From Owenia fusiformis (taxonomy: Eukaryota; Annelida; Polychaeta; Sabellida; Oweniidae), in the NCBI GenBank assembly GCA_903813345.2, contig CAIIXF020000001.1:34439366-34503365 (forward strand): DNA of 64,000 nucleotides, in the 5' to 3' direction. A program made the translations under genes and the position numbers. Positions 2,701 to 56,639 of this stretch are shown piece after piece. A model generated the notes under the pieces. It was not told the origin of the DNA, did no database searches, and worked only from the letters and a program-made list of their open reading frames with translations. The first letter of the stretch is position 1. The number at the start of each line of letters is the position of its first letter.

Positions 2701-2888
2701 TTTGTGGCCTTAAAATACTAATAATTCGATGTTGAATGTCAATCGTAGGCAAAGTTTTTTTTACCGATTTTAACCCTTTCAACGAAAGGCAAGCAAACAA
2801 ATTGGGCATGACCGTCTCCTCTCGATTTTTAGTTAATGAAAACACAGAATGAAATCCTGTGCTAAGGGCTGATGTGAAAAAGTCAGTC

Positions 2889-2959
2889 CACCCCAGTGGG
2901 GATCGAACCCACGACCCCTCGCTTTCCGGGCAAATGCTCTACCACTGAGCTACAGCATG
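2889..2959 (-). tRNA. tRNA-like sequence (possible tRNA-derived SINE head or pseudogene)
   Basis: Read on the minus strand it gives a near-complete cloverleaf of 71 nt. It has an A-box-like GTAGCTCAGTGGTAGAGC, an anticodon stem TTTGC/GCGAG (two wobble pairs) with loop CCGGAAA, and a perfect GTGGG/CCCAC T-stem enclosing TTCGATC (B box). The acceptor stem CATGCTG/TGGGGTG has one mismatch plus wobbles. The anticodon would be GGA (Ser), but position 33 is C instead of the near-universal U and there is no long variable arm as expected for tRNA-Ser. I therefore favour a pseudogene or SINE head. It lies directly next to a family B copy. Confidence 0.55.
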
Positions 2960-14790: not shown

Positions 14791-15736
14791 TAGGACCCAC
14801 GGTCCTGTGCTCACACAGTTTGGAACCTTCAGAGGAATGTATCTCCTGACTTTCAAACAAAAATGTTGATTTGGATTTGTAGTCTCGAACTTTGAGAAAC
14901 TAAGACAGCACAGTTGTGTGACCTAGTTTGATGACCTTTGACCTTGAAAATTTTAATTATTTAGAGCTCAGTAAGGTCTTTGTGATTAAGCTGAACAAAA
15001 TTTACATCCAAAAATCAATTTGAAAAATCAACCTTTTGGACCTTTCAAAGGTCACTGGAGGTCAAGGTAACTTGTAGATGATTTTCAAAAAAAATTTGGT
15101 CAAATTGAAGCAAGTTGAAAAATAACTTATTTTTACTGTGTTTTTTTTACGTCAAATATCTCAAAAACGGTAAAAATTTGATGCTGACATATATTGAGCA
15201 ATATGTAGGGAATGCTTAAATCTAGTTATGATGTAATTCATCGCAAGAAATGATCAAGTATAAGGCAAACTTTGAGAAACTTGTCAATCACAAAACCTGC
15301 CATTGACTTTATACATAAGAAAGTTTCCTACTTTTTGTCAAATTTTATAGAGTAAGCACCAAAAACTGTAATTCCTAGAGCTTTGAAATCTTCAGAGGAC
15401 ATAAGTTGCATATACAGCAACTACTACAAGTTATTTGAAAGTTCTACTTCAACAAAGTGTCTAGAATTTACAGAAAATTTGACTTTTTGACGTCAAAATC
15501 AGCAATTTCTCGGAAACCGGGCAAACTTGGGAAATGGCGATGAAAGGTCAAATAGGCATTATGGATATGCATAAAATGAATGTGGTAATGACTCAATCCG
15601 AATAGCAGTTTTAATTTGTGCGGCCAATGTTGACGGACGGACCAACGGACGGACCAATGGACGGACCAATGGACGGACGGACGGACCAACGGACGGACGG
15701 ACGCCTGGTCGATCCCATAGGCTCACTGTGTGAGCC
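14791..15736 (+). mobile_element. Family C element, complete, with clean insertion boundaries
   Basis: It begins TAGGACCCACGGTCC (hairpin GGACC-CAC-GGTCC) and ends at the 7-bp hairpin GGCTCAC-TGT-GTGAGCC (15720-15736). The flanks are CAATAAAAA on the left and AAAAACAATATG on the right; the neighbouring array unit at about 13920 has the unoccupied sequence CAATAAAAACAATATG, so AAAAA was duplicated. The body is rich in TGACCTTTGACCTT. A (GGAC)n tract precedes the tail (about 15635-15705). The minus-strand open frames encode Arg-Pro-Ser-Val repeats from this tract and are not genes. Confidence 0.8.
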
Positions 15737-16180
15737 AAAAACAATATGTCAATGTTTTAGTTTTTTCCTCAAAAAATGTCAAAGTTTATGAAAATTGAAA
15801 TACAATTACAATTTTATATGGCCTCAATTGCACTTCCGAACTTGGGAAAGGGGTCAAAACCCTTTATCTAACCTGTTCTTACTATGCTTTATTAGTACCC
15901 ATGAAGAAATAATTGGCATCAAAAGTCTTCAGCTTATCAAATGCCGTAAATTAAAAACAACCTTGGTGGCCATGTGACAATTTTCCTATCAATCATCGAT
16001 AAAATAAGAATGTGTCGCTTTTAAAGCAAGCATATTCTAGTGAAGCGGGTAAATTGAGGCGTTTTTTCCGTAACGTCACACCCATCTTTCAGACAATCTA
16101 GGGAAATATTTTAACGGCTAACATTCAGTGTGTTTTACATTAAATGAAAGCATATATGAAACACTTCCAAAAAAAGAAAC
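15737..16180 (+). repeat. Continuation of the 13.5-kb array, then unassigned sequence
   Basis: The first about 240 bases continue the interrupted array unit (ATATGTCAATGTTTTAG, TCAAAGTTTATGAAAATTGA). The rest shows no recognisable feature. Confidence 0.5.
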
Positions 16181-22314: not shown

Positions 22315-22986
22315 CTAGAAAAATAGCAACTCCACGGAGTAGCAAATGCCACTGAACAAAACATATTTTGCTTATTAGTGGCCATCATGAAAATTCCTTC
22401 ATGAGCAGAGCTTGATTGTCCCTATACTAGGCATCAACATATAAAATGTGAACCAGATCCATCAATTACCATTTGAGTTATCAAAGATTACATTCCTTTT
22501 TTACGAAAAATGGCAGCCATTTTGAAATTCAGCTGCCATTTTGAAAATCTTTCTCGAACAGAGCTACTGTGTCTCTAGGCATCAGCATATAAAATTAAAA
22601 AAGAAAATCCATTCACTGCTATTTGAGTTATCAAAGATTACATTTTTTATGAAAAATGGCCGCCAATTTGATATTTAGCAGCCATTTTGAAAATTTCTCC
22701 TTCAGGGTAGCTACTTTGTCCCTAGGCATCAGCATATAAAATTTTAACCAAATCCTTCAACTAGTATTTGAGTTATCAAAGATTACGTTTTTTACGAAAA
22801 AAGTTCTTTGGGATATATTTCTTTCATGTCTTTCTCTATTTCATCATCATTGTTGATGCTGCATAAGTCATCTATAAACCTTGTGGTTTTTGTGTATTTG
22901 AGTATTTTCGAATAGTCCTTCTTATGCGGATGGACAAACGGACAGACGGCTTTCTTGTATCCCCCTTGAACTTCATTTAGTGGGAT
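22315..22986 (+). mobile_element. Family A element carrying a reverse transcriptase fragment
   Basis: The head CTAGAAAAATAGCAACTCCACG carries the ACTC-CACG-GAGT hairpin, and three internal units follow. At 22801 the sequence switches to an RT-derived piece on the minus strand (to about 22920), then a short GGAC-type tract and the tail ...AGTGGGAT. The flanks are A-rich (ATCAAAA before, AAAAAGAAG after) and the paralogous empty site reads ATCAGAAAAAGAAGATC. Confidence 0.75.
22801..22920 (-). pseudogene. Reverse transcriptase fragment spanning motif C
   Basis: Minus-strand reading gives YSKILKYTKTTRFIDDLCSI and EIYPKE, which closely matches residues 95-131 of the 267-codon RT in the palindrome arms. 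The catalytic FIDD box is intact. Only about 40 codons survive. It lies immediately before the GGAC-type tract of the family A element, the same position as the larger RT segment in the family C copy, and antisense to the element's head-to-tail direction in both. Confidence 0.75.
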
Positions 22987-23542: not shown

Positions 23543-24140
23543 TCAAATGAATAGGCGCAGTGCACGCTTCTAAGATATGAGATCTATTAAAAAGGCGCAT
23601 CATTGCTATAAATCAGGCAACAATGGTCTACACGACCTGTAAAAATAGGTATAAGGGACGTTATAATCACAACACTAATCACATTGCTCACTTTTTAAAG
23701 TTAGTTTCCATGCGTTATACAAAAAATGATCGAAATAGATTAATATTGGATGGAGTCTCCATATAATATTGGAGAGCAGTCTCCTGGGCTAATTATTTTT
23801 TTATGAAAAATAAAGAAATATCACCCAAATCAAATTATGAATGTTCAAAAGAGGACATTTAAGTCTACAAGATGTAAAAATATCAAAATTGTCCGAAGCA
23901 GGGGTAACGTGCAGTAGACTGATTCATTTTGGAGAAAGAAGTTCATCAGTGTACTGCGCTAATAATTTTTTGTGAAAAATCTAAATATATGACCCAAATT
24001 ATATTATGACTATTCAAAAGAAGACATTCAAATCTGTAATATGTAAAAAATCACATTTGTCCGAAGCAGGGATAACGTTCAACTAGAGTGATGAACTTTG
24101 TTCTCCAAACCGAGAATAGTCCTTCCCATATTTAAATGAA

Positions 24141-26209
24141 GGACCCACGGTCCTATGCTCACACAGTTTGGAACCTTCAGAGGAATTTATATCCTGACTT
24201 TCAAACAAAAATATTGATTTGGATTTGTAGTTTCAAACTTTGAGAAACTTAGACAGCATAGTTGTGTGACCTAGTTTGATGACCTTTGACCTTGAAAATT
24301 TTACTTATTCAGAGCTCAGTAAGGTCTTTTGTGATTAAGCTGACCAAAATTTACATCCAAAAATCAATTTGAAAAATCAACTTTTTTGACCTTTCGAAGG
24401 TCACTGAAGGTCAAGTAAAGGTCAAATCCTAAAACTAATGTCATATTTGAACTTCTGGCAACTTGTAGATGATTTAAAAAAAAAATTTGGTCAAATTGAA
24501 GCAAGTTGAAAAATAACTTATTTTTACTGTTTTTTGACGTCAAATATCTCAAAAACGGTAAAAAGTTGATGCTGACATATATTGAGAAATAAGTAGGGAA
24601 TGCTTAAATCTATTAATGATGTAATTTATTGCAGGAAATGATCAAGTATAAGGCAAACTTAAAGAAGCTTGTCAATCACAAAACCTGCCATTGACTTTAT
24701 ACATGAGAAAGTTTCCTAAAGTCCTACTTTTTATCAAATTTTATAAAGTAAACACCAAAAACTGTAATTCCAAGAGCTTTGAAATCTTCAGAGGACATAA
24801 GTTGCATATACACCAACTACTAAAAGTTATTTGAAAGTTCTACTTCAACAAAGTGTCTAGTATTTACAGAAAATTTGACTTTTTGATGTCAAAATCTGCA
24901 ATTTCTCGGAAACCGGGCTAACTTGGGAAATGGCGATGATAGGTCAAATAGGCATTATGGATATGCATAAAATGAATGTGGGTACGACTCAATCGGAATA
25001 GAAGTTTTAATTTGTGCGGCCAATGTTGACAGACGGACGGACCAACGGACGGACGGACGGACGTCATTTGTTGTTGCTGCATTGGTTTCTTCATTCATTT
25101 TCTTCTTTCTTTGTCTTGATTTGATTGCGATGTTACTTATCTTTCTTCAGGGTCCACAGACTTGAGACTGCGCATAGGTGGGTTAAACGTTTTGATCCGG
25201 CCGGAAAACTCTCCCCTTCCCCTTACTGTTGGTCTTATGCTGATTTGTCATCTTAGTTTACCCTCTTTGCGGAGAAGATACTGTTTCATATTCATTTGTT
25301 AATGTTCTCTTCTCTCATTAATTTTCCAGTCCTTCATGATGATATTCTCCTGCATATTGTATTTAGTACATATCCATTTATTTCTTGTTATAGCTTTCTT
25401 AGTATACGAATTTAGTATGTTGCTTCTGTAGCCTTGACATTGTAGTTTATTTCCCAGGCTGGTAACTCTGTTTGTTGCATCTTCCAGTTGACTGCAGATT
25501 CTTGAAATCCTTATTATTTGTGATATAAATATTCCATAAGATTGGTTTCTAGGAATATTTCCAGATAGATCAGGATATGAGACTATTTGGAAATTGAAGT
25601 TTTCCCTTTTGTCGTATAGTTTTGTAGTGATTTGTTTATTTACTATTTTCATTTGTATGTCCAGAAAAATTGTTTCTGTATCCTTCTCATTTTCCTTGTT
25701 TAACACTAGTTCTTCAGGATAGATGTTCTTCATATCAGTCTCCATTTCTCCGTCGTTGTTTATAGTACATAAATCATCGATGAATCTTGTAGTTTTAGCA
25801 TATTTTAGTACTTTGGAGTAGTCTTCCCTATACATTTTCTCAATGGCTTGAAATTCATAACTGTATAAGTATAGGTTTGCCATATATGGCGCCGGATCGA
25901 TTCCCATCGGTATTCCAATTTTCTGTCTTAGAATTGATTTCCCTGCTTTAAAGTAGGCTGTATCCACGATGAAATCCACTAGATCATTGCACTCTCCTTT
26001 GGTATATGCCTTTTTATTATCCACCTTTCCACCCCATTTGGCTTCATCTCCACCTACTGTTATCTTTTGGTTAGTTCCTCCTCTGAAGGCTTTATCTATC
26101 ACCCATTTCAGTTTTTCCTTTATGTCAGTTAGATTGGACCAACGAACGGACCATCGGACGGACCAATGGACGGACGCCTGGTCGATCCCATAGGCTCACT
26201 GTGTGAGCC
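24141..26209 (+). mobile_element. Family C element (left arm) with an RT segment inside its (GGAC)n tract
   Basis: The head GGACCCACGGTCC (24141) and tail GGCTCACTGTGTGAGCC (ending 26209) are those of the complete copy at 14791-15736. The body up to about 25060 is colinear with that copy. Between two GGAC-type blocks (25033-25063 and 26136-26176), about 1,070 bp of RT-derived sequence is inserted. The flanks (AAATGA and AATAAAT) do not give a clear TSD. Confidence 0.85.
25299..26102 (-). CDS. 5'-truncated reverse transcriptase ORF (left palindrome arm)
   Basis: 267 codons starting at a GTG (the frame stays open upstream through ...LTDIKEKLKWV). Motif B is KIGIPMGIDPAPYMANLYLY (about residues 61-80) and motif C is RFIDDLC (106-112) with both catalytic aspartates. 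Downstream are FLDIQMKI, KLYDKRENFNFQIV and SYGIFISQIIRISRICSQ, blocks I associate with a widespread animal RT group having GIPMG.. and FIDD boxes. It may be Penelope-like, but the clade is not certain. The fingers and motif A are missing, there is no GIY-YIG or other endonuclease, so it cannot be active alone. About 230 bp of 3' UTR-like sequence follows before the GGAC tract. Identical to the right-arm copy. Confidence 0.85.
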   Translation of the reverse strand: MIDKAFRGGTNQKITVGGDEAKWGGKVDNKKAYTKGECNDLVDFIVDTAYFKAGKSILRQKIGIPMGIDPAPYMANLYLYSYEFQAIEKMYREDYSKVLKYAKTTRFIDDLCTINNDGEMETDMKNIYPEELVLNKENEKDTETIFLDIQMKIVNKQITTKLYDKRENFNFQIVSYPDLSGNIPRNQSYGIFISQIIRISRICSQLEDATNRVTSLGNKLQCQGYRSNILNSYTKKAITRNKWICTKYNMQENIIMKDWKINERREH

Positions 26210-26239
26210 AATAAATAGCACCATGGGTACTGGGGTCAC

Positions 26240-26991
26240 ATGGTGTTGCTTAAAAGTGAATGATGGCTAAAATGGCTGAAAAAATGGATGTAATTTTTGC
26301 CGATTTTTTGTAACAAAATTATTTCATACAACTACTCTTTAGAGTGACTTGGCTTTTTACAATGCAGGACACCTGAAATTATTTGTAAAGCTAGTATATG
26401 GGCCACAAGTAAATTTCGCAAGACAAAAATGGCGACCGTTTTGAAATTAGGCGAGCCTTTGAACCAGCAGTCATAGGGGAGTTTTCTGTATTGATGTTGA
26501 ACAAAAATAACTTAAAACAGGAATCCTATTGACAGAGGTTTTACGGCAAATGGTCCAAAAGTGGATTTCATGAGACATATGGACAAAAAAAAGCAGATAT
26601 AAATTTTTGCCGATTTTTTGTAACAAAATTATTTTATACAACTAATCTTTACAGTGACATTGGTTTTTACAATGCAGGACACCTGAAATTATTTGTAAAG
26701 CTAGGAAATGAGCCAAAAGTGAATTCTGCAAGACAAAAATGGTAACCATTTTGAAAATAGGCGAGCTTTTGAACCAGGAGTCATAGAGAAGTTTTCTACA
26801 TTGATGTTGACAGAAATTACTTAAAACAGGAATATTATTGACAGAGGTTTTAAGGCAAATGGTCCAAAAGTGGATTTCGCGAGATAGATGGACAAATCAA
26901 TGTTAACTAAAATGGCTGAAAATAAAAAAACGGATAAAATTTTTTGCTGATTTTTTTTGCTGGCTTTTTAAAATGCACCTGAAATTATTTG
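26240..26991 (-). repeat. Family E tandem units (left arm)
   Basis: Two to three units of about 300-330 bp carrying AAAATGGCGACCGTTTTG, AGGCGAGC, TTTGTAAAGCTAG and TTTTTTGTAACAAAATTATT. They are the mirror image of units in 28181-28935. Confidence 0.8.
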
Positions 26992-28180: not shown

Positions 28181-28935
28181 CAAATAATTTCAGGTGCATT
28201 TTAAAAAGCCAGCAAAAAAAATCAGCAAAAAATTTTATCCGTTTTTTTATTTTCAGCCATTTTAGTTAACATTGATTTGTCCATCTATCTCGCGAAATCC
28301 ACTTTTGGACCATTTGCCTTAAAACCTCTGTCAATAATATTCCTGTTTTAAGTAATTTCTGTCAACATCAATGTAGAAAACTTCTCTATGACTCCTGGTT
28401 CAAAAGCTCGCCTATTTTCAAAATGGTTACCATTTTTGTCTTGCAGAATTCACTTTTGGCTCATTTCCTAGCTTTACAAATAATTTCAGGTGTCCTGCAT
28501 TGTAAAAACCAATGTCACTGTAAAGATTAGTTGTATAAAATAATTTTGTTACAAAAAATCGGCAAAAATTTATATCTGCTTTTTTTTGTCCATATGTCTC
28601 ATGAAATCCACTTTTGGACCATTTGCCGTAAAACCTCTGTCAATAGGATTCCTGTTTTAAGTTATTTTTGTTCAACATCAATACAGAAAACTCCCCTATG
28701 ACTGCTGGTTCAAAGGCTCGCCTAATTTCAAAACGGTCGCCATTTTTGTCTTGCGAAATTTACTTGTGGCCCATATACTAGCTTTACAAATAATTTCAGG
28801 TGTCCTGCATTGTAAAAAGCCAAGTCACTCTAAAGAGTAGTTGTATGAAATAATTTTGTTACAAAAAATCGGCAAAAATTACATCCATTTTTTCAGCCAT
28901 TTTAGCCATCATTCACTTTTAAGCAACACCATGTG
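28181..28935 (+). repeat. Family E tandem units (right arm)
   Basis: These continue the spacer array without a break in orientation (ACCATTTG at 28309 and 28618). They mirror 26237-26991. Confidence 0.8.
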
Positions 28936-28962
28936 ACCCCAGTACCCATGGTGCTATTTATT

Positions 28963-31031
28963 GGCTCACACAGTGAGCCTATGGGATCGACCAGGCGTCC
29001 GTCCATTGGTCCGTCCGATGGTCCGTTCGTTGGTCCAATCTAACTGACATAAAGGAAAAACTGAAATGGGTGATAGATAAAGCCTTCAGAGGAGGAACTA
29101 ACCAAAAGATAACAGTAGGTGGAGATGAAGCCAAATGGGGTGGAAAGGTGGATAATAAAAAGGCATATACCAAAGGAGAGTGCAATGATCTAGTGGATTT
29201 CATCGTGGATACAGCCTACTTTAAAGCAGGGAAATCAATTCTAAGACAGAAAATTGGAATACCGATGGGAATCGATCCGGCGCCATATATGGCAAACCTA
29301 TACTTATACAGTTATGAATTTCAAGCCATTGAGAAAATGTATAGGGAAGACTACTCCAAAGTACTAAAATATGCTAAAACTACAAGATTCATCGATGATT
29401 TATGTACTATAAACAACGACGGAGAAATGGAGACTGATATGAAGAACATCTATCCTGAAGAACTAGTGTTAAACAAGGAAAATGAGAAGGATACAGAAAC
29501 AATTTTTCTGGACATACAAATGAAAATAGTAAATAAACAAATCACTACAAAACTATACGACAAAAGGGAAAACTTCAATTTCCAAATAGTCTCATATCCT
29601 GATCTATCTGGAAATATTCCTAGAAACCAATCTTATGGAATATTTATATCACAAATAATAAGGATTTCAAGAATCTGCAGTCAACTGGAAGATGCAACAA
29701 ACAGAGTTACCAGCCTGGGAAATAAACTACAATGTCAAGGCTACAGAAGCAACATACTAAATTCGTATACTAAGAAAGCTATAACAAGAAATAAATGGAT
29801 ATGTACTAAATACAATATGCAGGAGAATATCATCATGAAGGACTGGAAAATTAATGAGAGAAGAGAACATTAACAAATGAATATGAAACAGTATCTTCTC
29901 CGCAAAGAGGGTAAACTAAGATGACAAATCAGCATAAGACCAACAGTAAGGGGAAGGGGAGAGTTTTCCGGCCGGATCAAAACGTTTAACCCACCTATGC
30001 GCAGTCTCAAGTCTGTGGACCCTGAAGAAAGATAAGTAACATCGCAATCAAATCAAGACAAAGAAAGAAGAAAATGAATGAAGAAACCAATGCAGCAACA
30101 ACAAATGACGTCCGTCCGTCCGTCCGTTGGTCCGTCCGTCTGTCAACATTGGCCGCACAAATTAAAACTTCTATTCCGATTGAGTCGTACCCACATTCAT
30201 TTTATGCATATCCATAATGCCTATTTGACCTATCATCGCCATTTCCCAAGTTAGCCCGGTTTCCGAGAAATTGCAGATTTTGACATCAAAAAGTCAAATT
30301 TTCTGTAAATACTAGACACTTTGTTGAAGTAGAACTTTCAAATAACTTTTAGTAGTTGGTGTATATGCAACTTATGTCCTCTGAAGATTTCAAAGCTCTT
30401 GGAATTACAGTTTTTGGTGTTTACTTTATAAAATTTGATAAAAAGTAGGACTTTAGGAAACTTTCTCATGTATAAAGTCAATGGCAGGTTTTGTGATTGA
30501 CAAGCTTCTTTAAGTTTGCCTTATACTTGATCATTTCCTGCAATAAATTACATCATTAATAGATTTAAGCATTCCCTACTTATTTCTCAATATATGTCAG
30601 CATCAACTTTTTACCGTTTTTGAGATATTTGACGTCAAAAAACAGTAAAAATAAGTTATTTTTCAACTTGCTTCAATTTGACCAAATTTTTTTTTTAAAT
30701 CATCTACAAGTTGCCAGAAGTTCAAATATGACATTAGTTTTAGGATTTGACCTTTACTTGACCTTCAGTGACCTTCGAAAGGTCAAAAAAGTTGATTTTT
30801 CAAATTGATTTTTGGATGTAAATTTTGGTCAGCTTAATCACAAAAGACCTTACTGAGCTCTGAATAAGTAAAATTTTCAAGGTCAAAGGTCATCAAACTA
30901 GGTCACACAACTATGCTGTCTAAGTTTCTCAAAGTTTGAAACTACAAACCCAAATCAATATTTTTGTTTGAAAGTCAGGATATAAATTCCTCTGAAGGTT
31001 CCAAACTGTGTGAGCATAGGACCGTGGGTCC
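28963..31031 (-). mobile_element. Family C element (right arm) with RT segment
   Basis: Exact mirror of 24141-26209: the tail hairpin lies at 28963-28979 and the head hairpin ends at about 31031. The RT segment is at about 29037-30108. Confidence 0.85.
29070..29873 (+). CDS. 5'-truncated reverse transcriptase ORF (right palindrome arm)
   Basis: Identical in translation to the left-arm ORF at 25299-26102 (267 codons, GTG start, motif B GIPMG and motif C FIDD). The frame is open upstream into the GTCC tract (…VRWSNLTDIKEKLKW), showing that RT sequence begins abruptly just downstream of where catalytic motif A should lie. The complete amino-acid identity of the two copies shows that the duplication is recent, not that the protein is under selection. 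The stop at 29871-29873 is followed by about 235 bp of UTR-like sequence rich in AAGAAAG before (GTCC)n. Confidence 0.85.
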   Translation: MIDKAFRGGTNQKITVGGDEAKWGGKVDNKKAYTKGECNDLVDFIVDTAYFKAGKSILRQKIGIPMGIDPAPYMANLYLYSYEFQAIEKMYREDYSKVLKYAKTTRFIDDLCTINNDGEMETDMKNIYPEELVLNKENEKDTETIFLDIQMKIVNKQITTKLYDKRENFNFQIVSYPDLSGNIPRNQSYGIFISQIIRISRICSQLEDATNRVTSLGNKLQCQGYRSNILNSYTKKAITRNKWICTKYNMQENIIMKDWKINERREH

Positions 31032-31629
31032 TTCATTTAAATATGGGAAGGACTATTCTCGGTTTGGAGAACAAAGTTCATCACTCTAGTTGAACGTTAT
31101 CCCTGCTTCGGACAAATGTGATTTTTTACATATTACAGATTTGAATGTCTTCTTTTGAATAGTCATAATATAATTTGGGTCATATATTTAGATTTTTCAC
31201 AAAAAATTATTAGCGCAGTACACTGATGAACTTCTTTCTCCAAAATGAATCAGTCTACTGCACGTTACCCCTGCTTCGGACAATTTTGATATTTTTACAT
31301 CTTGTAGACTTAAATGTCCTCTTTTGAACATTCATAATTTGATTTGGGTGATATTTCTTTATTTTTCATAAAAAAATAATTAGCCCAGGAGACTGCTCTC
31401 CAATATTATATGGAGACTCCATCCAATATTAATCTATTTCGATCATTTTTTGTATAACGCATGGAAACTAACTTTAAAAAGTGAGCAATGTGATTAGTGT
31501 TGTGATTATAACGTCCCTTATACCTATTTTTACAGGTCGTGTAGACCATTGTTGCCTGATTTATAGCAATGATGCGCCTTTTTAATAGATCTCATATCTT
31601 AGAAGCGTGCACTGCGCCTATTCATTTGA

Positions 31630-34485: not shown

Positions 34486-34581
34486 CATAATTTTGTCTAG
34501 TCAGTATGCATATGCTCTCGACTTAATTGTGCCCCAAAAAACTATGCGTGAATTGTGAATTGTAAATTAAAATGTTTGAAA

Positions 34582-35532
34582 CTAGAAAAACAGCAACTCC
34601 ACGGAGTAGCAAATCCCACTGAACAAAACATATTTAGATTATTAGTGACCATCTTGAAAATTCCTTCTTGAGCAGAGCTTGTTTGTCCCTAAGCATCAAC
34701 ATATAAAATGTAAACCATATCCATAAATTAAAATTTGAGTTATCAAAGATTACATTCTTTTTTACTAAAAATGGCAACCATTTTGAAATTCAGCTGCCAT
34801 TTTGAAAATTCTTCCTTGAACAGAGCAACTGTGTCCCTAGGTATTATCATATAAAATTTAAAACAAATCCATTCGCTGGTATTAGAGTTATCAAAATTTT
34901 ATGTTTTTTTTACGAAAAATGGCCGCCATCTTGAAATTCAGCCGCCATCTTGAAAATTATTTCTTGAACAGAGCTACTGTGTCCCAAGGCATAATCATAT
35001 AAACTTTCAACCAAATCTGTTCACTGGTATTTGAGTTATCAAAGATTACGTTTTTTACGAAAAATTGTCGCCATTTTGTAAATTTTTTGTCAAACATAGC
35101 TACTGTGTCCCTAAGCATCATCATATAAAATTTGAACCAAATCCGTTCACTGGTATTTGAGTTATCAAAGATTATGTTTTTTAACGAAAAATGGCCATCA
35201 TTTTGAAATTAAGCGGCCATCTTGAAAATCTCTTTTTGTGCGAAACTCCTTTGTCCCTAGGCATCAGCATATTAAATTTGAACCAAATCTGTCAATTTTT
35301 ATTTGAGTTATCAACGATTACATTTTTTATGAAAAATGGCGGCCATTTTGAATTGAGCGGCCATATTGAAAATTCCTTCTCGAGCAGAGGTCCTACACTC
35401 ATAAGGCATAAGCCTATAAAATTTGAACCAAATCCGTCAACCGGTATTTGAGTTATCGCCCGGACACACGGACGGACGGACGGACAGACGGACGGCTTTC
35501 CTATATCCCTCTCGAACTTCGTTCGGTGGGAT
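34582..35532 (+). mobile_element. Family A element, complete
   Basis: Head CTAGAAAAACAGC with hairpin ACTC-CACG-GAGT (34596-34607), then five to six internal units with TTTGAGTTATCAAAGATTAC and GGCCGCCATCTTGAAATTC. A GGAC tract (35460-35493) and tail hairpin CGAAC-TTC-GTTCG (35513-35525) precede GGTGGGAT. The ORF-like stretch at 35191-35451 is a repeat translation. Confidence 0.85.
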
Positions 35533-35983
35533 AATTAATCCACAGTGAAATGTTAGCTCTGGTATAGGTCAAAATACATCGGATGTACAGTTTCGCTAAC
35601 TTTTGATGAATTTTTACTCTGTTATAAAAATTAAAAAGACATACTTATAGGAATGAGTAAGGTAGGAGAATGGAGATGAACTGTATCTAAAAGCTAATTT
35701 AATTCTGAATCCATCAATATTTTTTCAGCTTATTTGAATTCTTATCAGTGAATGAATTTTTACTTTAAAACATTACCATTCTAATTAATTGAATAGTAAA
35801 CTCAACAACTGAGTATTTGACCAGCAATGGAATATTTCCAATCATTTAAATATTATAACTGGGATCCCCTCGATTGTTGTACCATTGTAAAGAGAATTGA
35901 ATTCACTTTAAATAAATACAAATTTTGAATTGAATTATCATTAAACAAAATCTTAAACTAAGTACAATTAACAGACGGTTTGT
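35533..35983. other. AT-rich unassigned sequence
   Basis: No recognised feature. Confidence 0.4.
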
Positions 35984-36221: not shown

Positions 36222-37555
36222 ACCAAAACAACGGCAACGCCAAAGCGTAGCGAATCCCATCGAACAGCCATGGATGGCATTTTTACAAACAAAGTATATA
36301 GCAAAAATGGCAGCCATTTTTCAAAATGGCCGCCTTCTACCAAAAGTGTCATTAGACCATGTGCCATGCTTATAGTATTCATACACCAAATATGAACAAA
36401 ATCGCTCCACTACTTTTCAAGTTATAGAAAAAAACGTTAAAATGGCGGCCATTTTTCAAACTGGCCACCTTCTACCAAAAAATGCCATAAGACAGTGTGC
36501 CGTGTTTATAGTATTTACATACCAAATATAAACAAAATTGCTCCACTACTTTTCGAGTAATAGTAAAATACGTTAAAATGGGGGCCATTTTGAAAAATGA
36601 CCGCCTTTTCAAATTTTTTTCAAAATGGCCGCCTTTCAAAAGTGTCATAGGACAGTGTGTCATGCTTATAGTATTCAGATACCAAATATGAACAAAATCG
36701 TTCCACTACTTTTAGAGTTATAGTAAAATACGTTAAAATGGTGGCCATTTTGAAAAATGGCCGCCTTCTACCAAAAGTGTCATTAGACAGTGTGCCATGC
36801 CTATAGTATTCACATACCAAATATGAACAAAATCACTTCACTACTTTTCGAGTTATAGTAAAATGCGTTAAAATGGCGGCCATTTTTCAAAATTTTTTTC
36901 AAAATGGCCGCCTTCTACCAAAAGTGTCATAGGACAGTGTGTCATGCTTATAGTATTCACATACCAAATATGAACAAAATCGCTCCACTACTTTTCGAGT
37001 TATAGTAAAATACGTTAAAATGGTGGCCATTTTTCAAAATGGCGGCCATTTTTCAAAATAGCCGCGTTCTTCCAAAAGTGTCTTTAGACAGTGTGCAATG
37101 TTTATAGTATTCACATACCAAATATGAACAAAATCGCTCCACTACTTTTCGAGTTACAGCAAAAATCGTAAAATAACGAGTAAAGGCCGCCATTTTTCAA
37201 GATGGCTGCCATGTGCTTCTTAAATATCTACATTTCTAGCTTTATTAATGTTCTATATTATTTTTTTACATCTAAAACATATTGCTATTACAGTTTTACA
37301 TATTGCACCTAAAATACTGTAAATTCGGCACTAAAATGGCCGCCATTTTGAAATGAGCGGCCATTTTGAAAATCGGCTTTCGAGCAGAACTTCTACCCCC
37401 ATAGGGTATATGTGTACAAAATATGAACAAAATCAGGCCAACGGTATTTGAGTTATTGCCCGGACGGACGGACGGACGTACGTACGGACGGACGGACGTA
37501 CGTACGGACGGACGGAGGCGTTCTCTATATCCCTCCGAACTTCGTTCGATGGGAT
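36222..37555 (+). mobile_element. Family B element, complete
   Basis: The head has hairpin ACGC-CAAA-GCGT (36237-36248) and TAGCGAATCCCATCGAACAG. About seven internal units of roughly 120-150 bp carry AAAATGGCGGCCATTTTTC, GTGTCATTAGACAGTGTGCC and CGCTCCACTACTTTTCGAG. The end has a GGAC/GTAC tract (37447-37517), CTCCGAACTTCGTTCGATGG and GGGAT. The minus-strand frames at 36179-36820 are repeat translations. Confidence 0.85.
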
Positions 37556-38205
37556 AATAAATATATCATATATTGGAAAGTCACAACTGGATTTTTAATA
37601 TTTGAGTTGAATACCTAGGTTTTGTGTTTTCAATATGTTACCCTTTGTGTCCTACCTTTGATAATGATGTTTAATATGTCCTCTAAATTGAATATCCTAG
37701 GTTAAACCTACTGCATACCAACCGAGGTGATACTTTTGCTGAGTTTCAAGATTAAGATTCATAGATATATTATTACATTTTAGGGGTTGTTTTATGATTT
37801 ATGTTTTCAATATGTTGCCCTTTACCTTAATGATATTTTGATATATCGATTGATTGAATGGTCAATATACTTAAAATAGTCATGAGTGAAGACTAACATA
37901 CCCCTAACATGATATTTAGAATGCTTTGCATAGTCAAACTTAAATGCACTGAATGACCTTAGTTTTAATCCCTATGACCTAATTTTGTTTTGGATGTGTT
38001 CATAATTGATAAAAGTAACTATTTCCATGTAATGTTCAATGAAACCTTTAGGGGCACCTTTAGGTACATGAGGTAACGGATCCTTTATCTGATTCTGAAA
38101 CAATAAAAATAAAGCTTTCTAAGAACACAAATTTTTCTTGTTTTTATTATTGTTTATATAGGCTAAATATTTTATTGGAAATTTTGTGCTGACGAACGAA
38201 TATAG
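37556..38205. other. Unassigned sequence
   Basis: CAATATGTT(A/G)CCCTTT recurs twice (about 37630 and 37808) and AATATCCTAGGTT motifs suggest a degraded repeat. No gene. Confidence 0.35.
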
Positions 38206-39935: not shown

Positions 39936-40402
39936 TAACATGGCGAGGATGGTACGAGGCCCCTCCTGGTTTAAATCAATTCTTATGCATATTTATGATT
40001 AAAAATGAGCAAATATTATATTTATATCCCGGTTTATATGCACTGTTGGTACGAGGCCCCTCCCGGTTTAAATCAATTCTAATGCATATTTATGATTAAA
40101 AATGAGCAAATATTATGTTTGTATAAACTATTGGTCGATGTGTTACGATTTTGGTTAATTCTTATGCATATTTATGATGAAAAATGAGCAAATATTATGT
40201 TTATATAAACTATTGGTCGATGTGTTACGATTTTGGTCAATTCTTATGCATATTTATGATGAAAAATGAGCAAATATTATGTTTATATGAACTATTGGTC
40301 GATGTGCTACGATTTTGGTAGCCCTTGCAGATATATTCCCTAAATTATTGTCACCTTTATATTTAACATGGCGAGGATGGTACGAGACCCCTCCTGGTTT
40401 AA
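39936..40402 (+). repeat. Array of TTATGCATATTTATGATTAA units (copy 1)
   Basis: Units carry ATGGCGAGGATGGTACGAGG, AATGAGCAAATATTATG, TATTGGTCGATGTG and, at the end, GCAGATATATTCCCTAAATT. There are four internal repeats with periods near 100 bp. Confidence 0.8.
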
Positions 40403-41450
40403 AGATCTAATAGCAAAGGTTTTGCAAAAATACATGACATGTGACGCGGGGCAGGCAATTTTGATCTATCGTAGACCATATCAGTATCAAATTGCTGATA
40501 TTTCAACCTCGTCTTGCGAGGCCATTTTGATTTGAAACATCTTGAATTTGGTGTCAAAATGAAGCTGGTCACGCCCACTTTCAGAGTAATCAATGAATCA
40601 TTTACTACGACTACTATATTCATTTAGGATGCGTGTAAAGTTAACCAATCAGAAAGACAATTGTTCCATATATGGCAGTTCATTAACATATTCAGTGTTT
40701 ACTACTGCTTTTCGCATCATGACAACACGAGTAGTAACCAATCAAGATGCCGTATTTTATCACGTGAGTTCAGAGTGACACGCACGCGACATGTTGTCTG
40801 AGGTGATCGCGATGTTGAACAATTTCTTCTCGGAATTTGTCCAGAGAAATCAGCGATTCTAAATTAAGGTAGGATCTGCCATTTTTTCCTGTACAAGTTA
40901 TAACTTATCTCTATCGAATCCTAAAGTTTTGGAAGAAGATATGAAGCGTAGGTTTAAAAACGAAGCGATTAATTTGACGATCTGATTTTGCAATTTGCAA
41001 TGGCCAATTTACTACAAGTCCAGTGCATGTATTTGACAAGAGATAGCGCCAAGTCTTGTAGTCTTTGCAGTCTTTGCAGAAAACCTGTTTTCATAATCTG
41101 TTTTCCGCGTCTAGATTTCCCCTCCTTAAATTGTCTTCATTCAAATTACACCCTCTCGCCGATTTATATAGCCATTTTCCAGAACCCGGGAATCAGAATC
41201 GCTGATGTTTGCCATATTGAACATATTATATGTACTGTAATATCTGTACATTGCCTGCTACGCGTAATGGTCACGTGACTAGCGCGATACAGGAAAAATG
41301 GGGAATTTCGAAACAACAATTTTTGGGCACTTTTATTGCAAAATTCAGGTATTTATAAAGTGTTTGTGGTATAAAATATAATCCACAGACATAAATGAAC
41401 ATCCAAACTACATATTTCATTAAGTTTTGGAGCCTTTTCTGCTCTTAAAT
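40403..41450. other. Sequence between related arrays
   Basis: No recognised gene. A short plus-strand frame at 40791 (MLSEVIAMLNNFFSEF) ends within 25 codons, and the frame at 40988-41278 has no motif. Confidence 0.35.
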
Positions 41451-41454
41451 TAAC

Positions 41455-41777
41455 ATCTTTAAATCAATTCTTATGCGTATTTATAATTAAAAATGAGCAA
41501 ATATTATGTTTATATGCACTTTTGGTCGATGTGTTACGATTTTGGCAGCCCTTGCAGATATATTCCCTAAATCATTGTCACCTTTATATTTAACATGGTG
41601 AGGATGGTATGAGGACCCTCCTGCTTTAAATCAATTCTTTTGCATATTTATGATAAAAATGAGCAAATATTATGTTTATATGAACTATTGGTCGATGTGC
41701 TACGACTTTGGTAGCCCTTGCAGATATATTCCCTAAATTATTGTCACCTTTATATTTAACATGGCGAGGATGGTACA
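41455..41777 (+). repeat. Array copy 2
   Basis: Same motifs and orientation as copy 1, with two units ending in AACATGGCGAGGATGGTA. Confidence 0.8.
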
Positions 41778-41959
41778 AGTCTACGAATTGAATTAAATGA
41801 AAAGGGCCCTATTACCATCCAAGCCATGTTAAAATAATAGGAAATAAAAGGTAACAATAATTATGCAAATACATATTGCAAGGGATGCCAAATCATAACA
41901 CATATACAAATAGTGTATAAAAACATAAAACATATTAAATGTTATCAATATTAATATGT

Positions 41960-42110
41960 TAAATGTTATGTTTTTTCTAGGTACATTAGTGCACTTTTTG
42001 TGCAAAACTGAAAATAAAGACAATGAATGTGATGAAGGAGTGATTCCTAATTGAAAAATAACATATGACTTTACGGTCAAGTCAAGTAACTTAGTCAACA
42101 TTGGATATTC
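41960..42110 (-). repeat. Solo half of the foldback element seen at 45836-46257
   Basis: TTTTTTCTAGGTACATTAG, GTGCACTTTTTGTGCAAAAC, GAAGGAGTGATTCC and TTGAAAAATAACATATGACT match one arm of that element. The overlapping minus-strand frame is a repeat translation (shared TPS, KCT.VPRK text). Confidence 0.65.
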
Positions 42111-42965
42111 GTATGTTCATCAATATTTACTAAGAATGGTGCCACAATTGAAGTAAACCTCTGGTTAATTATTTTCAAAAACCTATCAGCAAACATGTAA
42201 ATGATAATTTCGATGTTCTGTTACATATTGGTGAAGCAATCTTGGGGATATGGCCTAAATTTCTGAATTTCTGATATGTCCCTGTATACCCCTACTTCAA
42301 AAGATCTAACATCATGTTTCAAGTTCTTACAATTCTTGGTTAACACAAATATTTTGAAAGTTGTGATTTCGAATGTAATCTCCTACTCCATGAAATTTGT
42401 TGATATTTGTGAATTCTTTCTTTCAGAATACACATTGCTTGATCACAGAACCTTGCCTTGTTCGAGATGCACGAAAAGTGTATTGTTAATACTTGACGTT
42501 CAGATATTTGGATGTGATTAACGTTTTAGTTAATCTCCTATTACTGTAACTTCCAACTTAATTTTTGAAAGCCAAATATGATAGTCACGAATTGATATTT
42601 AAGTCACATGTTGATGCATACATCATGTGTGTACAATAACTGTCGAATACATGCCGACTTACATTAATACAACTTGTATAAATATCCACAGTTAACTCAA
42701 ATCATCAATTCTCGAAATGGTTTATCATATAACCTGGTGAGTTTAATGTTTCATTTTAATTTATAATAATGGTCTCGGTTTTGAGTATGATATTAGTTGA
42801 GGGTTAAACAAAGCAATGAAATTGCATGAAAACTTTTGTGAAAATTCGAACGATTTTTCAAGAAATCCCCTTCAAAGATGTACGATTTTTATTTTCGAAT
42901 GTTGACTCAGTTACTCAACATGACTGTTTATTGAGGATTGCAGCGAAATTCCGAACATACAAACT
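42111..42965. other. Unassigned sequence
   Basis: No recognised feature. Short plus-strand frames at 42276 and 42826 lack motifs. Confidence 0.35.
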
Positions 42966-42969
42966 AGCC

Positions 42970-42997
42970 TTAAAGTTGCGGTGTTCCGCAACTTTAA
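42970..42997. other. 12-bp perfect hairpin
   Basis: TTAAAGTTGCGG pairs with CCGCAACTTTAA across TGTT. More GCGGT/ACCGC motifs follow at 43200-43310. Confidence 0.6.
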
Positions 42998-43331
42998 AAA
43001 TCTTTAAAACATACTCTGCACAGGTTGCTTTTACATCCATATTTGAACGTCTATATCACGTTCAATTTTTTATTTTTTTATTTTGAAACTTAACCTGATA
43101 AAAGGACAATACAAGGTTTACACATGTACATATTACCATCACTGAAAGGTAATGTTAAGTGTTTTTTCAAGAGGATTCATTACACGATAATGACGCAATT
43201 CTCGCAGTACCGCAAGATATCTGCGGTGATGCTGACTTTGCGGTCCCTTTGTGAATTGGAAACACCGGTACCGCAGTGATTTGCGGAATTGTGCAGGCTT
43301 GCGGAGCTTTCATGAATTAGGCCTCTGATAC

Positions 43332-43842
43332 CATCCCCGCCATGTTAAATATAAAGGTGACAATAGTCGAGGGAATATATCTGCAAGGGCTACCAAAATC
43401 ATAACACATTGACCAACAGTACATATAAATATAATATTTGCTCATTTTTAATCATAAATATGCATAAGAATTGATTTAAACCAGGAGGGGCCTCGTACCA
43501 TCCTCGCCATGTTAAATATAAAGGTGACAATAATTTAGGGAATATATCTGCAAGGGCTACCAAAATCGTAGCACATCGACCAATAGTTCATATGAACATA
43601 ATGTTTGCTCATTTTTAATCATAAATATGCATAAGAATTGATTTAAACCAGGAGGGGCCTGGTACCATCCTCGCCATGTTAAATAGAAAGGTGAGAATAA
43701 TTCAGGGAATATATCTGCAAGTGCTACCAAAATCGTAACACAGTGACCAACAGTGCATATAAACATAATATTTGCTCATTTCTATTCATAATCATGCATA
43801 AGAATTGATCTAAACCAGGAGGGGCCTGGTACCATCTTCTAA
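43332..43842 (-). repeat. Array copy 3, inverted
   Basis: Reverse-oriented units with CATCCTCGCCATGTTAAATA, AATATATCTGCAAGGGCTAC and TTTAAACCAGGAGGGGCC. About three units of roughly 170 bp. Confidence 0.8.
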
Positions 43843-46671: not shown

Positions 46672-46976
46672 TGGATATTTCATCAAGACTAACATCTATT
46701 TTTATTATCCACAAAAAAAACCCACTAGATAAACATTATTTCAGCATATATTCCTCTTAAAACATGGTGGATCTTAAAAATATAAAAGCGGATTTCCCCT
46801 TTTTGAAGCTTTGAACTGAATTTACACTTCTTAATGCTGAAATTGATAGTTTATACATACATTTTAAGAAAATAGGTCTGTCAAAGAAGATGTTAAGCCA
46901 AATGTTGCCTTGATAGCTCATAAAAAGTTAAAATTTTCCTATTTTCTCTCTACAGGCCTTGTTGCCCCTTTAAGTT
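46672..46976. mobile_element. 305-bp insertion in the LINE with 8-bp flanking repeat
   Basis: TTTAAGTT occurs at 46664-46671 and 46969-46976. The inserted sequence ends with TTTTCTCTCTACAGGCCTTG, and a related copy lies at 58830-58937 (AAGAAGATGTTAGACCAAAC, GATAGCTCA, TTTTTCTCTCCACAGACCTT). That copy also ends in TTTAAGTT, so the motif may be part of the element or a preferred target and not a clean TSD. Confidence 0.6.
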
Positions 46977-49900
46977 GTGTGTGCCCAGACATAAGTTGGT
47001 TTGTTAATACTCTATTGTACCTATTTCCTACCTGAAGGCTTAAACTTTTGGTTTTGATCTTAGGGACCAGGTTTTGAATGAAGCTCACTTTACTAGAGTT
47101 CTCAAATCTGGACTGCCATTTGTGAGTGCAGCCATTTTTAATCTTATTATAAGCTGTAGTCTTTGTGATGTTGGTCTCCGTGAGCTGTTTGGCATTTTCA
47201 GCTGCCTTCTTGGCCATCTTGTCTGCTAGTTCGTTGCCTTCTGTGCCCTGGTGTCCAGGTACCCAGTAGACTTGGATGGTTTTATGTTGCTGTTTAAGGG
47301 TTTTACAGGCTTTGCGAATTTCGAGTGTATCAGTTGTAATTCCTTTTAAGTTAGTGGTTAAGAAGGCTGATATTATTGCCGGTTGACAATCTGATAGTAG
47401 TGTAATATCAGGGCTTGTGGTGGCTGAGGTGAGGAATTCCAGTGCCAATTTCAATGCATGAATTTCGCCGATATAGTTGTTGCCAATCTTAGAGGTTGGT
47501 GATTGGATGCATATTGGGGAGGAAGACAGGCCTTGTTGGTAGATGATTGCTGCTGCCCCTGTTGGCCCTGGGTTCCCCAGTGATGAACCATCTGTGAAAA
47601 CTATAGTGTCTTTATCTGGTTTTGAGGAAAGTATGTTGACTATATTGTCACTCTGTGATTGTTTAGAGTTCTTGAAGTCCTCCACATGGACTTTGACAGG
47701 TGGTAGTTTAAAAGTTTCAATGTTTTCGTTGTGGTAGATGTGTTTGTAATAACTCTCCTGAGAGGTTGGGCAGTTATACAGTCGTAATCTTGCTGCTAGG
47801 ATGTTAAAGCAGGAGGGTTTGCGTTCTAGCGTAGATGACTGGGCCCATTGTTCATATTCGTCAGTAATTGGGGCTGATCTGTGATGGGTAAGAATTCTAA
47901 CAGCTTCTTGAGCTTGGCGTGCCCTTAGGATTATGTCGAGGGGGGGAACTCCAGCTAAAATTTCTAAAGTGTCAGTGCTGGTAGATGTTATGCAGCCGGT
48001 GGCCTTTAGTAGTGCTGATCTGTGTATAGGTGAAAATGCTGTTATAGCTTTATCTGTTACTGATGCGGCAGCGCTGATGCCTGATTCAAAGTGAGGCATT
48101 ACTAGTGCTCTATAGAGCATTGTAAAGACTTCTTGGCTGCATCCTCCCTTATTAGATGTGAAGTTTGAGATGCCGCTAAGCGCTCCGTAGGCCGCTTTTG
48201 TTTTCAGGTCTATGTGTTGGTTAAATGTTAGTTCAGTGTCAATAGTGCATCCAAGTATTTTCTTATGTGTCACTAAGTCCAACTTTTTTCGGCCGATGTG
48301 GATGTTAACTACCGGGGAGGGTTTGTTTGGTGGGGTGAAAATTAGGACTTCAGTTTTTTCAGGGGCAATTTCCATGTTCCATTTTCCACACCAAGAGACA
48401 GCAATTTGGTTAAGGTCTTCGTTGATTTGTGATGATAGCTTATCAATGTCTTTACCATGTGCCCATATGATATTATCATCTGCGAATCCTGCTGTGGCAG
48501 ATTTCACAGGGGTCATAGAGTCTTCAGTGTATAGGTTACAGAGGGATGGACTGAGAATTGATCCCTGAGGAATACCCACCCTAGATGTCATTAGTGGTGT
48601 GGTAAAGTCATTAGTTGTGATTGAGAATTGTCGGTTGTTAAGGTATTCGTGTAAATATACGAGCATCCTGCCTTTGATGCCTTTGTTAAACAGTTTGTAT
48701 ATGAGTCCCTCTCTCCAAATTCGTTCGAAACAACTTTCGTAATCCAGGACTGCAGCAATCACGGTTTCTCCTCTTCCCCAGGCTTGTTGGATGGATTGTA
48801 TTAGTCGAAGCACTGTTTGGGAGCAGGAGTGATGTTCTCTGAAGGCATCCTGGAAAATGGAATATGAATTGGTTATTTCGTTTTTCCAAGAGAGACAGGG
48901 GTTTATGATCCTTTGGAGTATTTTCCCTATGAGGGCTTCAAGTGTGATAGGGCGGTAGGCTCGGTCTGAGTTGTAGTTGGGTTTGTTTGGTTTATTGAGC
49001 ATAATTTTAGGGTCGATTTTATACTCTGATGGTAGTCTCCCCTGTTCCCAGCATTTTTGGGATAAAAACCAAATAGCTTTATGAAGTGTACTTCCGCCTT
49101 TTTTAATGAAGATACTCAAAATTTTCTCCCTTGGGCTAGGGGTTGTTTTAGTAGGAGTATGTTGGATGGCCGAGATTACCTCAGAGAGATCAATGTCTTT
49201 ATTTTCCGGAGCGCACATGTTGTTATAATCCAGAGATGCAATGATTTCCCTTTCTTTATTTATGATATCAGTGGCTTTGTTGGTTACATAAGTGAAACAT
49301 GTGGTAAACTGTTGGACCGGTAGTTGTTGTTTTCCATACTGAGCTACCATTGCTTGAGCTATGTCCTGGTCCGTAGAATAGATGGTATTGCCATCTTTAG
49401 ATATTATAGGCTGGACTATTTTTTTGTTTCTTTTATTTTGAGATTTGTTTATCGTTTGCCAAATGTTATCTGGTCTGTGTGTATCGAGCTCCTTGAACAG
49501 CTCATCCCAATACTCAGACTCGGCTTGTTGGGCCTTCCGGGAGAATTGTTCAGCGAGCTCGGTATAGGTCGACCAGTTATTTGGATCGCTTCTTTGATTA
49601 TATTTTCTTTTAGCCTTTCTCAGCTTTTTTACCATTGCTTTGAGGTCATTATTCCACCACCCTTTGCTCCTGGAACATATTGATTTAGTAGGGATGGTTT
49701 GTTCAACAATTTTAAGTAATGTGGAGCAGAGGGTGGTGTACAATTCTTCCACAGAGGAGTTTGATTGTGAATCTTGCAGCCACGTAGTGAATGATTCATT
49801 ACATTTATCTTGGAATAGCTGCCAGTTGGTTTTTTGTAGGTCCCAGTATTCCCTTTTCTCCTCAGTTGAACCCTGTCCAATGCAGAACGAGATTAGCTTG

Positions 49901-50214
49901 TGATCCGATCTAAGGTAAATCTCATCTCGCACTGTCCAGTTGTCAACTTTAGAGGCCAGGGAGCCTGAGCCTATGGTCAAGTCAATGATAGTTTCCTTCC
50001 TAGTGAATTGTTTGTTGTTGAAGATGTGAAGGTTATTTATCAGAATAAAATCTGATATGCTTTTGCCAAGCTTGTTATTCGAATTGTCATGCCAGAGTTG
50101 GTGTCTTGCATTGAAGTCACCTGTGAATAGGACTGGAAGACTATCATTAATGACCAATTGTGCAATTTTACTGAATTTGTCCCATGCTTCGATGTTCTCA
50201 GGAGGAATGTACAC
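46939..50214 (-). CDS. LINE ORF2-like protein: partial endonuclease, reverse transcriptase, RNase H
   Basis: 1,091 codons starting at GTG (apparent Met), open upstream to about 50272. Endonuclease residues: TGDFNARH (D33, N35) and SDH (103-105); its N-terminal catalytic Glu region is missing. RT about 395-665: motif A LDYESCFERIW (D491), motif B GIPQGSILSPSLCN (548-561), motif C GFADDN (D579, D580). RNase H about 868-1008 with all four catalytic acids: FTDGSS (D875), GEIHAL (E917), SDCQ (D942) and NELADKMA (D998). The last six codons (RPVERK) come from the inserted element. The long intact reading frame points to a young copy. Confidence 0.9.
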   Translation of the reverse strand: MYIPPENIEAWDKFSKIAQLVINDSLPVLFTGDFNARHQLWHDNSNNKLGKSISDFILINNLHIFNNKQFTRKETIIDLTIGSGSLASKVDNWTVRDEIYLRSDHKLISFCIGQGSTEEKREYWDLQKTNWQLFQDKCNESFTTWLQDSQSNSSVEELYTTLCSTLLKIVEQTIPTKSICSRSKGWWNNDLKAMVKKLRKAKRKYNQRSDPNNWSTYTELAEQFSRKAQQAESEYWDELFKELDTHRPDNIWQTINKSQNKRNKKIVQPIISKDGNTIYSTDQDIAQAMVAQYGKQQLPVQQFTTCFTYVTNKATDIINKEREIIASLDYNNMCAPENKDIDLSEVISAIQHTPTKTTPSPREKILSIFIKKGGSTLHKAIWFLSQKCWEQGRLPSEYKIDPKIMLNKPNKPNYNSDRAYRPITLEALIGKILQRIINPCLSWKNEITNSYSIFQDAFREHHSCSQTVLRLIQSIQQAWGRGETVIAAVLDYESCFERIWREGLIYKLFNKGIKGRMLVYLHEYLNNRQFSITTNDFTTPLMTSRVGIPQGSILSPSLCNLYTEDSMTPVKSATAGFADDNIIWAHGKDIDKLSSQINEDLNQIAVSWCGKWNMEIAPEKTEVLIFTPPNKPSPVVNIHIGRKKLDLVTHKKILGCTIDTELTFNQHIDLKTKAAYGALSGISNFTSNKGGCSQEVFTMLYRALVMPHFESGISAAASVTDKAITAFSPIHRSALLKATGCITSTSTDTLEILAGVPPLDIILRARQAQEAVRILTHHRSAPITDEYEQWAQSSTLERKPSCFNILAARLRLYNCPTSQESYYKHIYHNENIETFKLPPVKVHVEDFKNSKQSQSDNIVNILSSKPDKDTIVFTDGSSLGNPGPTGAAAIIYQQGLSSSPICIQSPTSKIGNNYIGEIHALKLALEFLTSATTSPDITLLSDCQPAIISAFLTTNLKGITTDTLEIRKACKTLKQQHKTIQVYWVPGHQGTEGNELADKMAKKAAENAKQLTETNITKTTAYNKIKNGCTHKWQSRFENSSKVSFIQNLVPKIKTKSLSLQVGNRYNRVLTNQLMSGHTQLKGATRPVERK

Positions 50215-50272
50215 TGAGCACAGTAAGAATGCCAGGTCTTTTATGTATATACAAAAAACAAAATGGTACCTG

Positions 50273-56622: not shown

Positions 56623-56639
56623 GTTTACCAAAATGTTAC

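Follow-up and report, generated by a model that had tools for sequence, protein, structure and literature searches.

Copies of one retroelement in the annelid Owenia fusiformis share a narrow target, the GTCC tract inside HINE-type hosts. They sit there in one orientation with a fixed 3′ end, 5′ truncation and the same host continuing on both sides; several hosts and several RT subfamilies are involved, and empty sites are present. The choice of tract and the choice of HINE are inseparable in these data. We are confident that the retroelement is a GIY-YIG-first Penelope-like element of the Naiad type that inserts selectively into (GTCC)n near the 5′ end of several HINE-type families, and that the RT fragment in a family A copy of the window (the whole stretch of 64,000 nucleotides analysed here) is such an insertion, probably shortened later by an internal deletion.

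The family A copy has its sense on the minus strand, starting with TCCCAC... at 22985 and ending with ...CTAG at 22318–22315, and its order on that strand is host 5′ end TCCCACTAAATGAAGTTC, GTCC tract, RT, tandem array. Its features, in window positions, are as follows.

22315–22985, minus strand: family A HINE copy (non-autonomous Helentron), its termini aligned with other family A copies of the window and genome
22968–22985, minus strand: 5′ subterminal inverted repeat and its inverted partner, TCCCACTAAATGAAGTTC (TCCCACCGAACGAAGTTC in other copies)
22928–22948, minus strand: GTCC microsatellite tract of the HINE (GGAC on the plus strand), the target of the retroelement
22802–22927, minus strand: RT fragment of the older Naiad-type subfamily, with a FIDD box in frame (KKDYSKILKYTKTTRFIDDLCSINNDDEIEKDMKEIYPKEL)
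22381–22801, minus strand: remainder of the HINE tandem array of about 145-bp monomers, ending mid-monomer at the RT junction
22326–22343, minus strand: 3′ palindrome GCTACTCCGTGGAGTTGC, then TATTTTTCTAG

A sequence-only reading had noted an RT fragment with a FIDD box beside the GGAC tract of this copy, in antisense, and we confirmed it at 22802–22927 of the minus strand. Its RT core is 80% identical to the RT of family C over 30 aa (tblastn, E = 3e-14) and 122 bp match C2:15725790-15725911 at 91%, so that the resemblance is not a matter of chance. The fragment belongs to an RT subfamily older than that of the family C RT and is truncated at both ends, the 3′ part of the RT and the 3′ tract being absent. 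The same reading described the layout as exactly that of family C, which is right for position and orientation; however, the family C RT has its own 3′ end and tracts on both sides, whereas the RT of the family A copy breaks off within the coding region and is joined directly to the array.

The family C insertion has the following parts.

28963–29036, plus strand: host 5′ end of family C (type iv; GGCTCACACAGTGAGCC...CAGGC) and the GTCC tract upstream of the RT, the tract at 28997–29036
29037–30109, plus strand: young-subfamily RT insertion, 5′-truncated, with intact 3′ end (...AACAACAAATGAC)
30110–30144, plus strand: GTCC tract 3′ of the RT end, followed by type iv host body TCAACATTGGCCGC
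25063–26135, minus strand: copy of the RT insertion in the second arm of a duplication, not an independent event, with tracts at 26136–26175 and 25028–25062

Because both copies are arms of one inverted duplication of 3449 bp (window 23543–26991 and 28181–31629, 99.97% identity, arms about 1.2 kb apart), we rejected two independent RT copies and treated family C as one insertion.

By its anatomy, family A is a HINE, that is, a non-autonomous Helentron. We looked for termini in 17 copies, 13 from the genome and 4 from the window, some of them cut short of both ends; both termini were recognised in 8 and at least one in 15. The subterminal inverted repeats are TCCCACCGAACGAAGTTCG at the 5′ end, with an inverted partner, and the matching GTTCGGTGGGA at the 3′ end, each with variants. 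TA precedes the 5′ end in 9 of the 10 found, and after it come the GTCC microsatellite and then the central tandem array of about 145 bp. At the 3′ end, the palindrome GCTACTCCGTGGAGTTGC is followed by TTTTTCTAG, the final CTAG being replaced by CTAA in 2 of 13, and TT follows all 13 of the 3′ ends found, making the insertion site T-rich. A paralogous site lacking the element lies at window 52999–53162 (minus strand), and at this single empty site, which is A/T-rich and diverged, no clear target site duplication was seen. The other family A copies had no RT (0 of 13 in the genome, 0 of 3 in the window) in a search that detected the window copy as positive control. Two of the RT-free copies are as follows.

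34579–35539, minus strand: RT-free family A HINE, its array directly joined to the tract
53601–55047, plus strand: RT-free family A HINE

Tandem arrays of high monomer identity were also seen at window 40047–43839 (about 82/166–167 bp) and 55924–58472 (162 bp). The window further contains an open 1111-aa frame at 46939–50274 (minus strand) with endonuclease, RT and RNase H matches, an apparently intact non-LTR retrotransposon, and a tRNA match at 2888–2959 (minus strand, 45.6 bits).

Around the RT we recognised six host types, five besides family A being distinguished by the sequence on either side of the RT. Types i, iii, iv, v and vi were compared at the 5′ end, the tract and the start of the body, and complete HINE ends were established for family A alone; as the typing motifs were drawn from the very loci that were typed, the host types are descriptive. 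Autonomous partners for the HINEs are possibly to be found among 58 Helitron_like_N matches in the genome, many with open frames of 2000–3300 aa and many lying on contigs whose number exceeds 12. Hosts with an uninterrupted tract give the empty form of the RT target site, for example:

15560–15780, minus strand: empty RT target site, an RT-free type iv host with uninterrupted tract
37333–37562, minus strand: empty RT target site, an RT-free type i host with uninterrupted tract

Such RT-free uninterrupted sites had 344 exact genome matches for type i, 85 for type iv and 88 for type v, and none for the reversed controls. Perfect 20-nt GTCC tracts gave 4083 overlapping matches in the genome against 175 for the reversed pattern, and many potential targets are therefore seemingly unoccupied.

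The source of the RT is a young retroelement of about 3.3–3.4 kb with a 998-aa frame, in which a GIY-YIG endonuclease comes first and the RT last. A protein search of the species' own genome listed at least 142 RT matches (141 of 435 candidates were scored); among those listed, the best two dozen were 97–99% identical to the query, open frames reached 998 aa and one tandem series had a period of 3407. The ORF searched whole gave no Pfam match. Residues 85–260 matched GIY-YIG at E = 0.0016 with 19.2 bits, below the curated cut-off of 22.6, and residues 600–998 matched RVT_1 at E = 0.0041 with 17.3 bits, below the curated cut-off of 29.6. Between the two lies CDC at aa 431, the sole CxC of the ORF. 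A stricter endonuclease pattern of our own did not match the ORF, comparison by sequence with solved structures returned nothing at E ≤ 10, and a single-sequence fold prediction of the endonuclease part reached a pLDDT of 35 and hence was unused. The RT copies also occur head to tail in tandem, with a unit of 3407 bp in L007 and, in L003 and L008, a partial upstream unit before the full one, GACGTCCG meeting TTTTGTG at the join. In these three loci, no hammerhead ribozyme was matched in Rfam at E ≤ 1. Criteria for the Naiad clade of Penelope-like elements with an N-terminal endonuclease were reportedly set out by Craig et al. in 2021; they include a CxC motif between endonuclease and RT and the lack of a canonical hammerhead ribozyme. 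By these criteria, the predicted protein and its gene fit a Naiad-type Penelope-like element.

To describe the junctions, we assembled 41 loci of the young subfamily, L001–L040 and the family C insertion of the window, picked by RT match and independently of the tract: L001–L040 comprise 20 best-match regions and 20 hand-picked ones, mostly shorter matches of high identity. The window family A copy is excluded from the young-subfamily counts. Of the 41 loci, 37 yielded terminal 3′ ends, 38 in total, and these coincide at a single position, ...AACAAATGA followed by C or T, or a near variant of it. This number leaves out the row for the window family A copy and the internal 3′ ends of tandem copies (the first in L003 and L008, two in L007, seven in L037) and includes both 3′ ends of the L040 duplication. 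A terminal 3′ end was missing in L026, L029 and L036; in L007 it lies beyond the cut, which stopped within the tandem array. The next 20 nt scored at least 0.70 for GTCC in sense at 35 of the 38 ends and in antisense at none, against a window background of 300 of 127,960; at the remaining three (L003, L020 and L037) the tract joined to the 3′ end is short or degenerate. The exact 18-nt 3′ end occurred 110 times in the genome and was immediately followed by GTCC in 86, counts that take in joins within tandem copies and the two arms of the duplication in the window; GTCC starts at 334 of 127,992 positions of the window. The 24 ends without an exact GTCC next to them include some explained by base changes (L022, L023). 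In L037 (C10:28770300-28775800), the type v host contains about 7–8 copies of a segment from the 3′ part of the RT element, with a period near 580 bp, the units being joined at GTCCGTCCG or GTCTGTCCG; here a retroelement fragment has become a tandem array.

The 5′ starts behaved differently from the 3′ ends. The 37 that were measured (the junction fell outside the cut in L001, L007, L022 and L039) were all different, with three neighbouring pairs within 4 nt. A 12-mer tract within 40 nt upstream was found for 23 of the 37 at a score of at least 0.8 (background 173 of 18,276) and for 30 at 0.75 or more (background 837 of 18,276). The seven with no clear 5′ tract at the lower score are L006, L009, L012, L014, L024, L032 and L038, several of which begin at or just within the host 5′ end. 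Where the host could be typed on both sides, the two flanks agreed in 26 of 27 loci. The sole disagreement, L024 (C498:34400-36400, on a 57-kb contig), has a type vi 5′ flank and a type i 3′ flank and is either chimeric or misassembled. The common position and orientation, which the sequence-only reading had held to be no accident, recur across the genome. The mapping of RT limits against the GGAC tract that it had called for was an appropriate check and gives, for the young subfamily, one fixed 3′ point and one orientation. A chance layout was rejected on the similarity of the family A and family C RTs and on the tract and orientation counts against background.

Helentrons capture sequences, and they could have gained the RT pieces when templates were switched at GTCC tracts in a rolling-circle process, a history for which the chimeric reading of L024 would speak. 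Capture would be expected to leave random end points, however, and all 38 terminal ends share a single 3′ point; the graded 5′ truncation, the uniform orientation and the agreement of host type across the insertion likewise argue against it, and we consider capture very unlikely. Taken together, the fixed 3′ point, graded 5′ truncation, single orientation and matching hosts are the signature of target-primed insertion.

The same data bear on the relation of the repeats to the RT. The layout common to families A and C had been read as a sign that the non-autonomous elements arose from this RT or are mobilised together with it, and the presence of RT at the same place and in the same orientation in several families does agree with this. 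Family A, however, has its own HINE termini and T-rich insertion site, and RT was absent from all 16 other copies tested although the control was found. Host copies free of RT number in the hundreds (344, 85 and 88 for the three types), and the RT units have ends of their own, with a fixed 3′ point, variable 5′ truncation and full-length copies in tandem, and are flanked by the identical host type in 26 of 27 loci. This leaves derivation from the RT, or mobilisation by it, barely credible, and the claim is contradicted by RT-free copies that have complete HINE ends. Given the RT-free copies and the HINE ends, we also rejected the idea that the RT is an integral component of these elements. The evidence instead points to the RT element as a guest and to the repeats as its landing sites, and families A and C share their layout because both carry GTCC tracts, which are the target of the RT element.

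The older subfamily, from which the fragment in the window family A copy comes, has a 3′ tail of ...CCTAAAGAC, then GTCC. We sampled 20 places (L074–L093, of which L076 overlaps L058) and recognised a host end on one side or both in 15; host motifs at random window points amounted to 17 of 400 for the 3′ and 5 of 400 for the 5′ side. Both sides were typed in seven, with agreement in all seven. A sense tract scoring at least 0.75 was kept in 10 of the 20 (23 of 2000 random points), and L091 had a tract score on the antisense strand only. A third subfamily, with the tail ...AACAAGAC and the tract next to it, was found in L042, L043, L044, L046 and L051, the last with a tract and no recognised host body. 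As read from the 3′ ends of the three subfamilies, all three tails end, in the better-kept copies, in GAC directly before GTCC. In L085 and L093 we saw, by eye, tails of different RT subfamilies seemingly one after the other at one tract, which suggests repeated use of a single site.

The third-subfamily loci belong to a further 20 places, mostly distant RT matches and including L059. In 13 of these (L041, L045, L047–L050 and L052–L058) there was no sense tract within the fetched stretch, where some cuts may miss the 3′ end; two of them, L041 and L048, are 56–62% identical to the RT query. Among the loci at 35–41% identity (L047, L049, L050, L052, L055, L056 and L057), none of the seven had a sense tract (score at least 0.7) or host body (at least 0.45) in the fetched 3′ flank. 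A tract preference general to all relatives of the RT is thus unsupported, and on the evidence of these seven distant loci only some members of the RT clade seem to have the habit.

The origin of the window family A copy is illuminated by L059 (C2:15.7 Mb), where a family A-type host has the order tract, RT, RT 3′ tail, second tract, array, and where the RT starts within about 2–3 nt of the RT start in the window copy. The window copy retains the first tract and the RT start, and passes from mid-RT into mid-monomer. As the simplest account, we infer a deletion that took out the RT tail together with the second tract and the array end. A second locus with the RT–array junction of the window copy was not found among the 40 of 1152 candidates that were scored, and the junction pattern at the RT start is matched by two loci only, the window copy and L059. 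Since both are in family A hosts with RT 5′ junctions about 2–3 nt apart, RT-bearing HINEs may have been copied by Helentron transposition after the insertion, part of the RT distribution then reflecting HINE movement. Such hitch-hiking would also fit L032 and L040, both in type ii hosts, which start 2 nt apart, and L040 itself, in which host and RT together are duplicated in tandem. Against it, the 37 measured young-subfamily starts all differ, and near-coincident starts are found across host types too (L002 of type iii and L019 of type vi, 4 nt apart), so that coincident starts alone are weak evidence; by eye, the hosts of L059 and the window copy were not clearly more similar to each other than to other copies. 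We regard hitch-hiking as possible, if rather unlikely. It is the one weak sense in which the elements could have been mobilised with the RT, at the two family A loci with nearly the same RT 5′ junction; the evidence speaks against a need for the RT. In L040 (C2:23642100-23644400), we observed that the host 5′ part and the RT are in tandem duplicate with a spacing of 841 bp, including part of the flank.

For selective insertion into the tract, we propose the following mechanism. The GIY-YIG endonuclease would nick the GGAC strand, the 3′ end of the nicked strand would pair with the terminal GUCC of the element's RNA, and the annealed end would prime reverse transcription. In the insertions observed, the 3′ end of the element (...GAC, then GUCC in the RNA) meets the tract and the 5′ truncation varies, so that the RT lies between tract and array with its sense on the GTCC strand; nicking, pairing and priming in this manner would explain the fixed orientation. 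In the window copy, an element of the older subfamily inserted in this way into a family A HINE, and a subsequent loss of internal sequence probably brought mid-RT and mid-array together.

The element resembles the Naiad clade in having GIY-YIG before the RT with CxC between them, tandem head-to-tail copies with partial units resembling pseudo-LTRs, no hammerhead found, and insertion into microsatellites. It differs from the clade as described in that its target is (GTCC)n alone, situated towards the 5′ end of HINE-type DNA transposons and used in one orientation, and in that three RT subfamilies share this target. On the host side, the part of the oyster literature consulted describes Cg_HINE with a 5′ subterminal inverted repeat and inverted repeat, a microsatellite, central tandem repeats, a 3′ subterminal inverted repeat, a palindrome and an oligo-T/TT site, and several Cg_HINEs of the Pacific oyster carry GTCY/GTCC/GTCK microsatellites (PMC7492417). 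The DINE-1/HINE Helentrons are described likewise in the sections consulted (PMC4067079), and family A shares the layout of both (PMC7492417, PMC4067079). In the same sections, these descriptions make no mention of a retroelement homing to the microsatellite (PMC7492417, PMC4067079). Titles and opening lines of abstracts contained no report of a Penelope-like element in Helentron or HINE microsatellites, which at that level does not imply absence from print. In bdelloid rotifers, endonuclease-deficient Penelope-like elements are described at telomeres, in the part of the source consulted (PMC3846280). With these and telomerase RT, the present element shares a related RT class that joins its product to a short repeat. 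It differs from them in having its own endonuclease and an interstitial tract inside DNA transposons, and priming by annealing is a proposed step here.

We tentatively suggest, as a possibility somewhat below even, that a Penelope-like lineage has come to live, as a specialist, on a single kind of DNA transposon. The 3′ end of its RNA would recognise the GTCC microsatellite of HINEs by annealing to the nicked tract, much as telomerase pairs with its own repeat; the terminal GAC before GTCC would have been kept by three subfamilies whose tails otherwise differ, and homed copies would seed tandem arrays in HINEs, as in L037.

The findings turn the puzzle of a shared RT fragment into a guest–host relation between two classes of transposons. 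They also caution that RT fragments within tandem-repeat transposons are no evidence of mobilisation by the RT. The retroelement has a simple and countable target, a four-base repeat in one orientation. With such a target, in vitro assays can ask directly whether a Penelope-like enzyme recognises the tract, and the target is also relevant to how these RTs are related to telomerase.
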